IMG/VR virus record: IMGVR_UViG_3300009083_000003
Coordinates: 1 to 46,452 of that record
Direction: 5' to 3' (one strand)
From: a virus
DNA length: 46,452 bases
This document shows, in pieces, positions 33 through 46,344 of the stretch. The notes under the pieces are model-generated. The model worked only from the letters and a program-made list of their open reading frames with translations. It had not been told where the DNA came from and did not search any database. A program made the position numbers and the translations under genes. Position 1 is the stretch's first letter. Every line of letters starts with the position of its first letter.

Positions 33-122
33 GGAAGGGTGGCCGAGTGGTTTAAGGCACCGGTCTTGAAAACCGGCGTGGGTGCAAGCCCACCGTGGGT
101 TCGAATCCCACCCCTTCCGCCA
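33..122 (+). tRNA. tRNA-Ser(UGA)
   Basis: This is a class II tRNA. The acceptor stem GGAAGGG (33-39) pairs with CCCTTCC (112-118), followed by discriminator G119 and an encoded CCA (120-122). The anticodon stem CCGGT/ACCGG encloses loop CTTGAAA with anticodon TGA at 67-69. A long variable arm (GTGGGTGCAAGCCCAC) and the T arm GTGGGTTCGAATCCCAC are present. The gene is intact and is the integration target: its last 14 bases plus the following base form attL, so the phage restores the tRNA 3' end. Confidence 0.97.
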
Positions 123-123
123 C
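109..123 (+). other. attL core
   Basis: The 15-bp sequence CACCCCTTCCGCCAC covers the T-arm/acceptor 3' side and CCA of the tRNA and is repeated exactly at 46330-46344. Flanks differ (preceded by C and followed by C here; preceded by A-G context and followed by T at the other end), which defines the core limits. Confidence 0.93.
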
Positions 124-127
124 CGTT

Positions 128-151
128 GCTTCCGTCGACCTCCGCGGAAGC
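128..151. other. Inverted repeat just inside attL
   Basis: GCTTCCG (128-134) and CGGAAGC (145-151) form a perfect 7-bp hairpin stem with a 10-nt loop immediately downstream of the tRNA. There is no following T-run, so it is a weak candidate for a tRNA terminator. It may equally be a recombination-protein site. Confidence 0.4.
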
Positions 152-235
152 CCACTTTCACCTTGATTTACAGCGCGTTCTGCAAGAAGTTCGTCCGCGA
201 TCTTCCGCGACGGACCGCCCAAATCCGTGAAAATT

Positions 236-275
236 CCGGGCATAAAGCCGGGTATCTTTTCTCGCGGCCGGGTAT
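236..275. other. Candidate integrase arm-type repeats, left end
   Basis: CCGGGCATAAAGCCGGGTA (236-254) closely matches CCGGGCATTAGACCGGGTA at 46246-46264 near attR (16 of 19 identical), and a further GCCGGGTAT lies at 267-275. Repeats placed just inside both ends of a tyrosine-integrase element fit arm-type Int or Xis binding sites. That role is inferred. The repeats overlap the region just upstream of the integrase start, so they could also serve in int autoregulation. Confidence 0.5.
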
Positions 276-291
276 TTTACACAGGACGCCG

Positions 292-1557
292 ATGCTTACC
301 GACACCGCAATCAGAAAAGCCGCCCCAACCGCGAAGCCCTACAAGATGGCGGACGGTGGCGGCCTTCACCTCTTCGTCAGCCCTGCCGGCGGCAAGCTAT
401 GGCGCTATCGGTACGAGATCGGCGGCAAAGAGAAAACCCTTTCGATCGGAAAGTATCCGGCTATCTCGCTCGCTGCGGCACGCCAAGCGCGGGACAAGGC
501 GCGAAGTATCCTCGCGGCCGGGCGCGACCCATCTATCGCGAAGCGCGTTGAGAAACTGACGATCCGAGCCCAGGCGGCCGACAACTTCGAGGCTATAGCT
601 CGGGAGTGGTTCGAGGCCAATGAGGCCAGATGGACAAAGGTCCACTCAGATGACGTGCTTGAGTCGCTGGAGAGAGACGTCTTTCCGTTCATCGGAACGT
701 TGCCCGTCGTCGAGATCGAGCCGCCGCAGATATTGACCGTTGTCCGCCAGATCGAGCAGCGCGGCGCGATCGAAACCGGCGGGCGCGTCAGGCAGCGCAT
801 GAGCGCGGTGTTCGTGTATGCCATCGCCACCGGCAGAGCGAAGACGGACCCGGCGGCCATCATCAAGGGAGCGCTTGCGTTTAGACGTAAGGGCAGATTC
901 CCCGCCATCACAGATCTGGAGAAAGCAAGGCAGATCATCCGAGACGTTGACGCGACGCCAGGATTCGCGATCACAAAGCTAGCCATCCGGCTTGTAGCCC
1001 TGACAGCCGTCCGGCCAGGCGTCATCCCCTCGACGCCTTGGAGCGAGCTGCCGCAGGGCGCGGACCTATGGGTGATTCCAGCGGCGAGAATGAAGATGTC
1101 CGCCGAGCGCAAGGAGGACGAGGCGCGAGATCACATCGTTCCCCTATCGCGTCAAGCAGTCGAAACAATCGAAACGATTAGGACTATCACCGGAAAAGGT
1201 CCACTCGTCTTTCCGAACACGCGGCACGCACACAAGGGCATGAGTTCGAACGCCATGGGGTATATGCTCAACCGGGCCGGCTATCACAGCCGACATGTCC
1301 CGCACGGCTGGCGCTCGACGTTCAGCACCATCATGAATGAACGGAACATCGCCGACGCGCCGGTAATCGATTTCATGCTTGCGCACCAACCGGAGAACAC
1401 CACCGAGGCGGCGTACAATCGGGCACTCTACCTACCGAGACGAATCGAGCTTGCGCAAATCTGGGCGGACCTCATCACAGACGGTCTAGACCAACCGTCA
1501 TCGGTCATTGGGATGCCAGTTCGGACGCTTTCGAAAGGCCGGCCATCCACGCGTTAA
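292..1557 (+). CDS. int: P4-type tyrosine integrase
   Basis: A 421-aa site-specific recombinase that should integrate and excise the prophage at tRNA-Ser. The N-terminus (MLTDTAIRKA, then YKMADGGGLHLFV and KTLSIGKYP) is the DUF4102-type arm-binding domain typical of P4-like integrases. The C-terminal catalytic domain shows an Arg region (LTAVRPGVIP), HGWRSTFST for the His-x-x-Arg motif, and the late Tyr in NTTEAAYNRALY. The first Arg motif reads TAVRPG, normal for this family. ATG 292 was chosen because the family begins with this motif; the reading frame is open further upstream into the tRNA but that part is not coding. The gene sits 170 bp from attL, and its last 53 bp overlap the alpA-like gene antisense. 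Confidence 0.95.
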   Translation: MLTDTAIRKAAPTAKPYKMADGGGLHLFVSPAGGKLWRYRYEIGGKEKTLSIGKYPAISLAAARQARDKARSILAAGRDPSIAKRVEKLTIRAQAADNFEAIAREWFEANEARWTKVHSDDVLESLERDVFPFIGTLPVVEIEPPQILTVVRQIEQRGAIETGGRVRQRMSAVFVYAIATGRAKTDPAAIIKGALAFRRKGRFPAITDLEKARQIIRDVDATPGFAITKLAIRLVALTAVRPGVIPSTPWSELPQGADLWVIPAARMKMSAERKEDEARDHIVPLSRQAVETIETIRTITGKGPLVFPNTRHAHKGMSSNAMGYMLNRAGYHSRHVPHGWRSTFSTIMNERNIADAPVIDFMLAHQPENTTEAAYNRALYLPRRIELAQIWADLITDGLDQPSSVIGMPVRTLSKGRPSTR

Positions 1558-2165: not shown

Positions 2166-3374
2166 CTACTTGTCCGCGCGCGAAAGGAAGCCTTGCCGGA
2201 ACAGCACCACCATGTTTAGCACTGCCATCGCGACCTTGAACAGCATGTAGAGCCCGCAACCCGCGGCGATCAGCCACCAGTGAGCGAAGCACCACTGAGC
2301 GATACCGATGATCGTCGTCAGGATCGTGGTGACCGTGCCGAGCGTGTCCTGCGCGCTCTGCAAAGTGTCCGTCGCCTTGGTGAGCAGGCCCTGTTGCTCG
2401 GCACCGCCGAGAAGGCCACCGCCGAGCAGAAGCTTTCCGAGCAGGCCGAAGCCGTCGAGCGTCGCGACTTGCGTGTTTCCCTTCTCGCGAAGATCTGACG
2501 CGCTCGCATCGGCGCGCGATTTGGCGACCTGCCGCGGCCCGGCAGCGGCTAGGGCGGCGGAAAACTTCGCGTCGATCGCGTCGCCGGCCGGAAGGCCGGC
2601 CTCGGCGCGGAAAGCGCGGATCGCGTTGGTGGTCTTACGCCCCATCAAGCCGTCCGGCTGACCGACCTCCGTGTACCCCTTCGACGAAAGTAATTCCTGC
2701 TGATCGTAAAGCGCGGGATCGCCGTTCGGGTGCAGGCCGGGCCGCGCCTTCGCGGTATCGGTTCGGACCGCCGCGTCCTTTCCACGAAGCAAATTCCAGA
2801 GAGTGCCCCACACGCCGGGACGCTGCACGGCGACCGGAGCCGGTGCAGTCTCGACGATCGGAGCGGCGGTCTTGACCGGCTTTCGCGCAGCCCCACGGCC
2901 GAACACGATCTGCTGCGCTTCGATCCAGTCAGCATCGGCAGCGGGCATCTTCTTGCCGGCTTCGTGCGCGGCCTGTGCTTTCAAGAACGCCAGACCGGAC
3001 GGGCTTCGCCAGAAAGCGTCGTTCATGATCGTGTCCTCGGTCAGGCCAGGCACACGCTTCTTGCAGAACGCGATGTAGGAATGCACGTTGTTGCCGCCGG
3101 ACCACGTCGCAATCGCATCGGCGAAGCGCTTGTTCCGATACTTCGGCGAGGTGCGCCAAAGATCGAGCTGCGCGCAGATGCCCTGCACCCAGGTATCGAA
3201 CACAGCGATGTTGTTACCCTGCCCTTTTCCGTCGTTGAGATAGACGGTCTTGGTGCTACCCCACTTGAGCGGGATCGCGGCGTTGGTCGCGACGATTTTC
3301 GCCGAAGACGGGCGCTTTCCAGTTCGTCCCCACATAGCGCCGGGATTTTTGTATCTGATCGCCGCTGGTTCCAT
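2166..3374 (-). CDS. Endolysin with PG-binding domain and C-terminal membrane segments
   Basis: A 402-aa protein. The N-terminus (IRYKNPGAMWG, IAVFDTWVQGICAQLDL, WSGGNNVHSYI) resembles the phage 'structural protein P5'-like lysozyme family that starts with an R-x-x-NPGA motif. A peptidoglycan-binding repeat follows at about residues 220-280 (QELLSSKGYTEVGQPDGLMG, TTNAIRAFRAEAGLP). The C-terminal third contains a glycine/leucine-rich hydrophobic stretch (LLGKLLLGGGLLGG) and one or two clear membrane helices (WWLIAAGCGLYMLFKVAMAV). It may thus combine cell-wall hydrolysis with membrane tethering or a holin-like function. ATG 3374 has a GAGAGA Shine-Dalgarno. The spanin-like gene follows at once. 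Confidence 0.8.
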   Translation of the reverse strand: MEPAAIRYKNPGAMWGRTGKRPSSAKIVATNAAIPLKWGSTKTVYLNDGKGQGNNIAVFDTWVQGICAQLDLWRTSPKYRNKRFADAIATWSGGNNVHSYIAFCKKRVPGLTEDTIMNDAFWRSPSGLAFLKAQAAHEAGKKMPAADADWIEAQQIVFGRGAARKPVKTAAPIVETAPAPVAVQRPGVWGTLWNLLRGKDAAVRTDTAKARPGLHPNGDPALYDQQELLSSKGYTEVGQPDGLMGRKTTNAIRAFRAEAGLPAGDAIDAKFSAALAAAGPRQVAKSRADASASDLREKGNTQVATLDGFGLLGKLLLGGGLLGGAEQQGLLTKATDTLQSAQDTLGTVTTILTTIIGIAQWCFAHWWLIAAGCGLYMLFKVAMAVLNMVVLFRQGFLSRADK

Positions 3375-3459
3375 CGTGACAATCTCTCAGGTTGCGATTT
3401 GACGCCGCAACCATTGCCCCGTGAATAGTTGCCATCGAGAACAACCAAACGGAGCGCGA

Positions 3460-3715
3460 ATGTCTCAGCACCAAGGGTTGCCAGTCGCAGGCTATCGGCC
3501 GCAGTCGGATCGGAGTGTCGAGCTGGTCAACAGGAACAAGGAATCGGAGGAGCTGATCCTGCGCAACCTCGACGCTCTCGCCGCAGACGACAGCGTCGAC
3601 AAGCGTCGACAAGCGTTGGCTGGCGGTCGGCCGGACCCACATCGAGCAAGGCTCCATGGCGATCAACCGCGCCATCTTCAAGCCGGGTCGCGCCGTCGTA
3701 CCCGGCGACAAGTAA
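3460..3715 (+). pseudogene. acb2: Acb2-like anti-CBASS protein gene, frameshifted
   Basis: The first 48 codons encode QGLPVAGYRPQSDRSVELVN, then RNKESEELILRNLDALA and DDSVDKR, the N-terminal half of the Acb2/Tad1-hairpin family (cyclic-nucleotide sponges that block CBASS immunity). The rest of the family signature (RWLAVGRTHIEQGSMAINRA, then IFKPGRAVVPGDK and TAA) lies in the next frame. The cause is visible: CGTCGACAAG occurs twice in tandem at 3594-3603 and 3604-3613. Removing one copy restores an 81-codon gene. ATG 3460 has GGAG 5 bp upstream. It is a lone + strand gene between two - strand operons, as expected for an accessory 'moron'. As read the product would be non-functional. The family assignment is from motif memory; the frameshift is seen directly. 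Confidence 0.85.
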
Positions 3716-3770
3716 TCGAACACAGCGCGCGGAAGTCCACCCAACCAATCCGGAACGTTGGGAAAACATG

Positions 3771-3837
3771 CCCCCGATCGACCGTGAAGAACGGCATTGG
3801 ACCGCGTGCTGACTGGCAGTGCCAGTGTAATCGGGGG
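3771..3837. other. Structured intergenic segment
   Basis: CCCCCGAT (3771-3778) and ATCGGGGG (3830-3837) are perfect 8-bp complements enclosing CCGT-GAAGA-ACGG (3782-3794) and ACTGGCA-G-TGCCAGT (3812-3826). The RNA would fold into a closed multi-branch structure of 67 nt. It lies between the 3' ends of the acb2-like gene and the primase gene, so it may be a bidirectional terminator or 3'-UTR structure. No T-run is present on either side and no coding potential is apparent. Confidence 0.4.
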
Positions 3838-3883
3838 AGCCGGGGATAGAGGGCCGCAGCGGAATGAGCCGCTTGCGGCCATC

Positions 3884-6277
3884 TTACCATTCGGCAAGGG
3901 ATTTTTGATCCGCACCATCATCGTCGGAAGTGACGCGCCGGAACACAACGCGATCCTCGCCATCCTGCCGATCGCGCGAGGACGTCCATTGCAGTTTCTT
4001 CATGATGCGGCCGACACGCCCAGCGTGCCGCCAGTCAGCATCCTTCTTCGGGATACCCAGCGCGGCGAAGATATCAATCTGCGCGATCGACCTCTGACCA
4101 TTCTTGACCGGGACGTCGTTCAACACCGGAACGATCAGATCGACCCACACGTCAACGTCGGTGCGCTTCTCTTGCTCTGCCTCGACGGCGGCCTGCTCGC
4201 CCTCTTGCACCCACCAAGGCGTACCATCGCGATACAGCGCGACCGCTTCCGCCCAAAGCTGATCGCGATCCTGCTGCAATCCCTCGATATCGATCGAGCC
4301 GACCGTCAGCGGCCAAAACCGCCGCGCGCCTGTCGGATCGCGCAAGTACGCGTTGCCTTCCGGGTTGATCGTGCCGTTGAGCACGCACCGCCGCGGCGCT
4401 TCGATCACCGATCGCCCGTAGGGCGGCCGGTATCGGTCCGTCTGGCGGGAGAGAAACTTCTTCACGGCGTTTGTTTCGGAGGCATTGAACCGGTGCATTT
4501 CAGCGACCTCGATCCCCCAAACACCCTGCATTTCCATGAGCGCATCTTTGCCGCCGATGTCGGACAATTCGTCGGTGAAAAACTCATCGCCGTAGAGCGC
4601 CCGCAGCGCCGTTGATTTCTTCGCCCCTTGGGGCCCCTCGAGGATCGGCATGGTGTCGACCTTGCACCCGGGGCTGAGGCCGCGTGCGACGCTGGAGATC
4701 AGCCAGCGCGTACCGACAGCCCGTGCATACTCACAGTCTTCGAGGCCGAGATAGTAGGACAGCCACGTCGCGATGCGCGGCTTACGGTCCCATTCGAGGC
4801 CGTCGAGATATTCGCGCAGCCGGTCGAAGCTATTGTGTTCCGCCACCGTCTGGATCACCGCCGCGATGTTCGACGCCTTCGGCGTCATGTTGCGGCCTTC
4901 CAGCCACATCACCGCTTCGCTGTAGTCGCGATCCTGGAGCACGCGCGGCTCCCACCCGTTGCCACGCTCCCACGGCGGTTTCCGCTGGAGCACGACGCGC
5001 AGTTTAAACGCATCCCACGCAAAGGTGCCCGCGATGTCCGGATGGTGTTCGAGGAATAGAGCCCAGTTCTTCGTGATCGACGGCTTGAGCTTGCCTTCCT
5101 CGTTGAAGACGAGTTGCAGCATCCATCCGTCATCGGCAGGAACCTTCTTGCGCGTATGGAGCTGCGTCACCGTCGCTGACGCCGGCTGTTCCTGTTGCGT
5201 GGTCCGCGCCTCAGTCACCGGCCTTCCGGTCGAGATCGGGTCTGGACGGCCGGCAGGAGGCGGAGGAGGATCGAGGGGTGCCGGCGGCTCCGGTTCGGGT
5301 TCCGGTGGCGGCGACCATGGTCGGACTGTCTCGCGCATGAAGCGGTCAAGACCGTCCTTCGTCCATCCGCCGTCGATCGCGTCCGCGCAATCCCAACCAT
5401 CCTTCGGCTGGTCGCGCATCACGTCCATGACGCGGACCGTGCAGCCGAGCCCAATCACGATCGCCGCGATTTCGTCGGCCGTCTTGAGTCCCGGCTTGTC
5501 GGCGTCCGGCCAGATCACGACGTTGCGGCCGGCGAGCGGCGACCAGTCGCAGTGCTTCACGCCCTGCGTTCCGCCCGGCCATGACACGACGACGCGTCCG
5601 GTAACGCGGGCGAGCGCGTCGCGGCACTTCTCACCCTCGACGACAATCACCTGCCGGGCGTCGCCGAGCCCTTCGAGGCCGTACAGCGAGCGTGGCTTCG
5701 GAAACGGAAAGCGCGACCAGCACTCCAAGCCGTTCGCGAGCCGCACCGACATAACCATCGGCGTTTCTTTGCCGTCGTTCAGGTCCCGCCGCAGCACGTA
5801 ACCAATCAGCGATCCGTCCGCGCGGCGATATGGAAACACCATCGACGGGACGAACCGGCCCCACTGCATATCCGTGTCGGCGCGCTTGGGATTGTAAAGC
5901 GAGACCCGATCGCCGACCGCGATTTCGCCGGCAGGATCGCGCAGTGTGATCCCCGCATAGACGTCACGCACCGGGACTTGCTTTCGTTCGACGTTCGGCC
6001 CGGCCTTGCCGCCGCCGAGGATTCCAATCGCCTCGCGAAGGTCGACGCCCTTGAGCGCTTGGACATAGTCCAGAAGGTCGCCGTGCTGTCCGCAGCCGAA
6101 GCAATGGAAGCGCTGAACGCTATCCTTGCCGACGAAGATCGTGAACGACGGTGTGTCTTCCTTGTGGAACGGGCAGCAAGCGGCGAACTCGCTACCGTCC
6201 TTTTCCAGCTTGAGGCCGAAATTTCGCGCCACGTCCGAAAGAAGAACATCGCGCCGAAGGCGCTCGACATCGGACAT
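3884..6277 (-). CDS. Primase-helicase: CHC2 + Toprim + VapE-like ATPase
   Basis: A 797-aa replication protein. Residues 35-62 form a DnaG-type zinc finger (CCPFHKEDTPSF, FHCFGCGQHGD). A Toprim core follows at about 205-260 (VIVVEGEKCRDAL, VIWPDADKPG). After a Pro-rich linker (about 340-360) comes a virulence-associated-E-like ATPase with Walker A ILEGPQGAKKSTALRAL and the family stretch GIEVAEMHRF, TGARRFWPL. It probably primes and unwinds phage DNA. ATG 6277 was chosen over the TTG 12 bases upstream because TGAGG lies at proper spacing before it. It is the last gene of the leftward replication operon, but has its own operator at 6301-6317. Confidence 0.92.
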   Translation of the reverse strand: MSDVERLRRDVLLSDVARNFGLKLEKDGSEFAACCPFHKEDTPSFTIFVGKDSVQRFHCFGCGQHGDLLDYVQALKGVDLREAIGILGGGKAGPNVERKQVPVRDVYAGITLRDPAGEIAVGDRVSLYNPKRADTDMQWGRFVPSMVFPYRRADGSLIGYVLRRDLNDGKETPMVMSVRLANGLECWSRFPFPKPRSLYGLEGLGDARQVIVVEGEKCRDALARVTGRVVVSWPGGTQGVKHCDWSPLAGRNVVIWPDADKPGLKTADEIAAIVIGLGCTVRVMDVMRDQPKDGWDCADAIDGGWTKDGLDRFMRETVRPWSPPPEPEPEPPAPLDPPPPPAGRPDPISTGRPVTEARTTQQEQPASATVTQLHTRKKVPADDGWMLQLVFNEEGKLKPSITKNWALFLEHHPDIAGTFAWDAFKLRVVLQRKPPWERGNGWEPRVLQDRDYSEAVMWLEGRNMTPKASNIAAVIQTVAEHNSFDRLREYLDGLEWDRKPRIATWLSYYLGLEDCEYARAVGTRWLISSVARGLSPGCKVDTMPILEGPQGAKKSTALRALYGDEFFTDELSDIGGKDALMEMQGVWGIEVAEMHRFNASETNAVKKFLSRQTDRYRPPYGRSVIEAPRRCVLNGTINPEGNAYLRDPTGARRFWPLTVGSIDIEGLQQDRDQLWAEAVALYRDGTPWWVQEGEQAAVEAEQEKRTDVDVWVDLIVPVLNDVPVKNGQRSIAQIDIFAALGIPKKDADWRHAGRVGRIMKKLQWTSSRDRQDGEDRVVFRRVTSDDDGADQKSLAEW

Positions 6278-6300
6278 CCGTGGCCTCAAGTGATTTGTTT

Positions 6301-10243: not shown

Positions 10244-11104
10244 ATGACCGAAAAGCTCAACGTCAATCCGGACATCAAGCCGGGCATCTATCAGAGCATC
10301 CCGAACGAGGCGTACCACGCCGGCCCCGGCATTTCGAAGTCAGGCCTGTGGACGATCGAGACGCAGAGCCCGGCGCACTACAAGTTCGGCGAGCGCAAGG
10401 CGACCAACGCGTTCGACTTCGGCGAAGGATGCCACCTCGCCATTCTCCAGCCCGAGTTGTTCGAGGCCCGCGTGTTGCGCGGCCCCGAGGATCGGCGCGG
10501 CAACAAATGGAAGGACGTTGCCGAGATGTGCAAGGTGGACGGCAAGCTGTTGCTTACCGGCCCCGACTACGACAGCGTATTGGCGATCCGCGACGCGGTT
10601 CATGCCGACGCCTGGATTAATTCGATCATCACGAGCCGCAAGCCCATGGTCGAGGCGTCCGGCTACTGGATCGACCCGGAAACCGGCGAACTCTGCCGGT
10701 GCCGGCCCGACCTGTACCGCGCCGATCTCGGCATCATCCTGGACGTGAAATCGTCACTCAGCGCGCATCCCGACGCCTTCGCGCGCTCGGTCATCTACTA
10801 CGGCTATCACGCTCAGGAAGCGTTCTACTCTGACGGATGGCACTCGCTGGGCCAGAAGGTCGAGGGTTTCGTTTTCCTCGCGTGAGAGAAGAAATCACCC
10901 TACGCCCACGCGGTCTATGAGCTGCCGCCGTCGATCGTTGACGAGGGCCGCGCCATCATGCGCAAGGCGCTAGGCACCTACGCCGAATGCCGCACGGTCG
11001 ACCGCTGGCCCGGCTACTCCGATGGCGTCACCGAGCTGCCGATCAAGCGTTGGGCCTATCGCCTCACGCAAGCCCCTGATCTCAGTGCCGAGGCGGCGGC
11101 GTGA
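10244..11104 (+). pseudogene. RecE-like PD-(D/E)XK exonuclease, interrupted by in-frame TGA
   Basis: The frame encodes a PDDEXK exonuclease of the RecE/exodeoxyribonuclease VIII type: ISKSGLWTIETQSPAHYKF, AFDFGEGCHLAIL, then catalytic CRCRPDLYRADLGIILDVKS and YYGYHAQEAFYSDG. After codon 213 (VEGFVFLA) a TGA at 10883-10885 interrupts, but the same frame continues with the expected family C-terminus (EKKSPYAHAVYELPPS, then AECRTVDRWPGYSDG) to TGA 11102. The full length would be 286 codons. The truncated product retains the D/E-x-K residues but lacks the last 73 codons. The partner RecT gene follows. Readthrough or a sequence error is possible. Confidence 0.85.
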
Positions 11105-46329: not shown

Positions 46330-46344
46330 CACCCCTTCCGCCAC
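46330..46344 (+). other. attR core
   Basis: CACCCCTTCCGCCAC, identical to the tRNA 3' end at 109-123. No further tRNA similarity is present on either side, so it is the duplicated core and not a second tRNA. Confidence 0.93.

Follow-up and report, generated by a model that had tools for sequence, protein, structure and literature searches.

Acb2 proteins are small helical hairpins. As hexamers they sequester the cyclic di- and trinucleotides that serve as alarm messengers in CBASS. The closest described members are Acb2 of the Pseudomonas phages PaP2/PaMx33 (p26, structures 8h2j/8ixz) and Vs.4 of T4 (7uq2), and these have the same Pfam domain and helical hairpin as the gene analyzed here. Residues Y11/K26 of p26, which we take to be its cyclic-dinucleotide residues, align with Y12/K27 of the read-through protein of this gene. 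Residues Y8/F82 of T4 align with Y12/F70 of the same protein; T4 Acb2 requires Y8 to bind dinucleotides, and its F82 stacks against the ligand (PMC12657218). Broken copies of the gene are also on record. The acb2 of PaMx41 (orf24) is naturally broken like the one described here, there in an isolated phage; ORF24 is annotated in the sequence record with 111 nt, a 36-codon frame, and the no-stop mutation X37Q is reported to lengthen ORF24 and to lead to CBASS resistance (PMC10419184). PaMx41 and T2 have been cited as natural acb2 losses, and in a laboratory selection with Panoptes 14 of 15 T4 escapers were mutated only in acb2, indel frameshifts included (PMC12657218).

Here we analyzed a window of 46,452 nt, which is the whole stretch of DNA under study (positions 1 to 46,452 of the IMG/VR virus record IMGVR_UViG_3300009083_000003). 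The window is a provirus with 15-bp att repeats at a tRNA-Ser gene, and it also encodes podovirus-type portal, tail and head genes, a repressor-like gene and RecT. The features are as follows.

33-122, plus strand: tRNA-Ser(tga), the integration site
82-1557, plus strand: integrase ORF, which in its listed form overlaps the tRNA and matches integrases from residue 67 on
109-123, plus strand: attL core, 15-bp repeat of 46330-46344
2166-3374, minus strand: lysis-type protein (endolysin PHROGs, PG_binding_1), divergent upstream neighbour of acb2
3460-3603, plus strand: 5' part of the acb2 homologue, read from ATG 3460; covers residues 1-48 with the first long helix and with Y12 and K27, which align with cyclic-dinucleotide residues
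3460-3849, plus strand: frame actually open from ATG 3460, 129 codons and stop; Acb2-like for the first 48 residues only
3592-3616, plus strand: 25-bp array of period 10 which holds the 10-bp duplication; the inserted copy is not placeable within the array; 10-base gap in four syntenic relatives
3605-3715, plus strand: 3' part of the acb2 homologue with stop, frame +1 relative to the start; second long helix including F70
3884-6289, minus strand: primase/helicase, convergent neighbour of acb2, same arrangement in relatives L098-L101
10241-11104, plus strand: RecE/exonuclease VIII-like gene (PF12684, PHROG 412), broken by TGA at 10883-10885
46330-46344, plus strand: attR core

The acb2 copy of the window is distributed over two frames. 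From the ATG at 3460 the first frame gives MSQHQ...DDSVDK, the first 48 Acb2-like residues, and thereafter unrelated sequence up to the stop at 3847-3849. The second frame (3461) is interrupted by a TGA at 3554-3556, beyond which it runs to ...SVDKRWLAVGRTHIEQGSMAINRAIFKPGRAVVPGDK and the stop at 3713-3715; after 3554-3556 it has no start codon upstream of the ATG in SMAINRAIF. Judged by these frames, the copy appears to be a pseudogene of the Acb2 family and not a working member. No promoter was found by the promoter scan.

The break is at a tandem duplication. Two spacer-free copies of CGTCGACAAG are present at 3594-3613, as the original prediction had stated, and the array proved longer than it had given, since it extends over 3592-3616 and reads AGCGTCGACA AGCGTCGACA AGCGT (25 bp, period 10, 15-bp self-match). 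Its further statement, that removing one repeat unit joins the two frames into an 81-codon protein, was confirmed by translation. The 20-mer CGTCGACAAGCGTCGACAAG occurs a single time in the window, at 3594-3613, where shuffles give an expected number of 0, and the array is the sole exact tandem repeat with a unit of 10-30 bp in the 46,452 nt. Markov-shuffled sequences had a mean of 0.13 such repeats, and a period-10 run of 15 was reached in 0 of 100 shuffles. The single-copy sequence would read AGCGT-CGACA-AGCGT, that is a 5-bp direct repeat at 10-bp spacing, and replication slippage across this repeat, for which the five bases of AGCGT would suffice, probably produced the duplication in a one-off event. 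A 12-bp imperfect inverted repeat overlaps the duplication site; single-strand folding was no better than in shuffles (z -0.47 and -1.64), and a hairpin-promoted duplication is not claimed.

The HMM search of the repaired 81-aa sequence, by which the original prediction proposed to check family membership, gave a match to Pfam PF24729 (Acb2/Tad1 hairpin) over profile positions 1-58 of 58 with 61.3 bits and E 1e-16, the curated cut-off being 27 bits. The C part alone scores 37.5 bits, above this cut-off, and the N part alone 21.4 bits, below it; the family searches of the read-through protein depend on the joining of both frames as in the relatives. Sequence matches in PDB were obtained with p26/Acb2 (8h2j, 8ixz; E about 1e-6) and weakly with T4 Vs.4 (7uq2), and PHROG 717, of unknown function, was also matched. 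The protein of 81 aa has its hairpin from residue 11 on and is without the N-terminal beta domain of Tad1. The pocket residues corresponding to T4 Y8 and F82 are both present, as Y12 and F70, of which F70 lies beyond the lesion. The prediction of an Acb2-family gene broken by a 10-bp tandem duplication is thus upheld by the PF24729 and solved Acb2 matches, and by ten extra bases relative to the relatives described below.

The fold was taken from an AlphaFold model of an intact syntenic homologue (L116:5740-5985, minus strand), which has helices at 17-41 and 48-69 with pLDDT 85; the two long antiparallel helices are therefore those of the homologue's model and not of the window protein itself. 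The top eight PDB matches of this model by Foldseek are all Acb2 or Vs.4, with probability 0.99-1.00 and TM 0.54-0.67 by query length, and with Foldseek E-values of only 0.007-0.07; sequence identity of the homologue to p26/Vs.4 is only about 26-28%. Placed on the model, the frame break would fall where the chain turns from the first long helix to the second, so that the duplication would shift the frame there and the translated product would keep the first helix and be without the second helix and F70. Unlike p26 and Vs.4, only the first helix would be read. As the second helix is lost, this shortened protein should be unable to build the sponge, and we infer that Acb2 function has been lost in this copy.

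Five related records were retrieved with the window primase. They belong to a temperate podovirus-like group (L116, L098, L099, L101; records G401-G405) with primase identity of 55-73% to the window. The acb2 locus is conserved in 4 of the 5 records: the order helicase, regulator-like gene, VRR-NUC and primase, with convergent acb2, is the same in the four relatives which reach the locus (L098-L101), and acb2 is a single open frame in all four. The fifth, G405, has no PF24729 match, and it is uninformative on acb2 because the record stops beside the primase. Aligned at the DNA level with the four syntenic relatives, the window exceeds them by exactly ten columns at the repeat. The relatives have an intact, single-frame acb2 without exactly these 10 bases, and therefore the duplication is the derived state. 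A wider set of 80 viral loci and Rhizobium sp. C1 (L007) with acb2 relatives was single-frame throughout (81/81), and no tandem unit in these 81 homologous loci exceeds 6 bp; the search peptide patterns lay in the N-terminal half, so copies broken in the C-terminal half were not missed on that account. Among 397 whole genomes of one alphaproteobacterial order, PF24729 matches were found in 22 and none has an internal stop; the five weakest of the 22 are partial matches, and location in prophages is assumed. The order-wide DNA search gave only partial matches of 66-83% and no near copy of the phage.

Some other characters of the locus were observed in these comparisons. In L101/G404 and L102/G405 the primase match is split over two ORFs (about 290 and 510-530 aa) and the gene is split or interrupted there, whereas the window has a single ORF of 801 aa. 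Between acb2 and the primase gene, whose 3' ends face each other, the stretch 3713-3885 is well conserved among five related phages and has no obvious conserved gene; it is possibly an RNA or control element. Between the divergent lysis gene and acb2 there is an inverted repeat, GGTTGCG-N9-CGCAACC (3390-3412), with a similar one, GTTGTG...CGCAAC, retained in the relatives, and this is perhaps an operator.

When the relatives' proteins were compared with the window, a single additional gene shared by these relatives proved to carry a clear lesion. It is the RecE-like gene, with a TGA at 10883-10885 in place of the TGG or TTC of five relatives; past this TGA the homologous sequence runs on intact. 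This second lesion favours general decay of the prophage over a switch or a cause specific to acb2. We therefore consider it likely that acb2, as part of the conserved locus of this temperate podovirus-like group and integrated here at the tRNA-Ser gene, was recently inactivated by the one-off duplication, and that its loss is most simply a case of neutral decay in a resident prophage which also lost its RecE-like exonuclease. The neutrality of the loss is the conditional part of this reading: two lesions make a small number, and the remaining genes that were compared seem undamaged. The prophage may therefore still be largely in working order, and selection may lie behind the loss of acb2. 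The original argument that acb2 brings a prophage no benefit is weak, with open chromosomal copies occurring elsewhere and Acb2 reported in a review to act on lysogenic induction and not in maintenance (PMC12043709). The PADLOC scan gave no confident defence system among the proteins tested.

The loss looks recent, as was also predicted. Among 77 distinct relatives, 20 residues are conserved at a level of 95% or more. The read-through protein keeps all 20 of them, as well as 24 of the 25 conserved at 90%, which is within the range of intact relatives. Since the rest of the read-through protein is almost undrifted, the gene would have been under constraint until recently. The sole departure at the 90% level is S62 (codon 3653-3655), which is aromatic (F, W or Y) in 77 of 77 relatives; T4 Vs.4 has a serine at the aligned place. 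As S62 replaces a universal aromatic residue, reduced function before the duplication is possible, and S62 could be early drift or an altered ligand preference.

The same undrifted sequence is also what would be expected of a sequencing or assembly artefact, in which case the repeat unit would be single and acb2 intact in the actual provirus. Searching viral contigs for the single-copy 24-mer and the duplicated 25-mer gave no match. The lack of another record with the duplicated form is again in line with an artefact, but carries no weight because records close to the window may be missing from the set searched. Against an artefact, base-calling errors do not typically take the form of a perfect 10-bp duplication, the 25-bp repeat is shorter than ordinary short reads, and the RecE-like TGA is a second lesion of a different kind. 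We regard an artefact as unlikely.

Selection may instead have acted on acb2. A guard of the Panoptes type (decoy cyclic nucleotides, OptSE) makes an active sponge lethal to the cell, and acb2 would be discarded for this reason. The laboratory T4 escapers from Panoptes carry acb2 mutations (PMC12657218), and they lost the gene by indel frameshifts, as in the window, among other mutations, but under laboratory selection. The guard leaves the lesion of the RecE-like exonuclease unexplained, and all four syntenic relatives reaching the locus keep acb2; selected loss is thus rated as improbable, below the artefact. An extended form, in which a Panoptes-like guard selected the loss and the tandem repeat would let the prophage regain its sponge when CBASS is met, has a very small chance of being right. 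The proposed regain can be likened to PaMx41, which regained its sponge by a point mutation.

The original prediction had also suggested phase variation, in which the counter-defence gene would be turned on and off as the 10-bp unit is lost and gained; this found no support. The repeat can in principle revert by slippage through its 15-bp self-match, but there are only 2.5 units, none of the 81 homologous loci has the unit repeat or a broken frame, and the four syntenic relatives have a single copy. Switching would moreover be lopsided, with the on-to-off step far rarer than off-to-on, because the one-copy state keeps only the 5-bp AGCGT repeat. Such a switch is scarcely credible here. Programmed +1 frameshifting or other recoding, which would yield the whole protein lengthened by three residues at the turn, can practically be dismissed, for although the turn tolerates length changes and relatives differ there by several residues, no recognised slippery motif was seen at the site by inspection, the relatives are single-frame and the duplication is unique to the window record.

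Neutral decay of acb2 in the resident prophage is therefore the reading we retain. Natural loss of acb2 is already known from PaMx41, and the window is another natural loss with a different type of mutation: a point stop in a Pseudomonas phage in the one, a 10-bp duplication in an integrated provirus in the other. No earlier note of acb2 in the phage group of the window was found. With these data, an uncharacterised temperate phage group is seen to have a sponge gene of the Acb2 type at a conserved locus, and one more natural loss joins the few reported. A single acb2 loss beside another decayed gene says little alone on selection by guard systems; natural acb2 losses are the data needed for asking whether phage genomes are shaped in nature by guards of the Panoptes kind.
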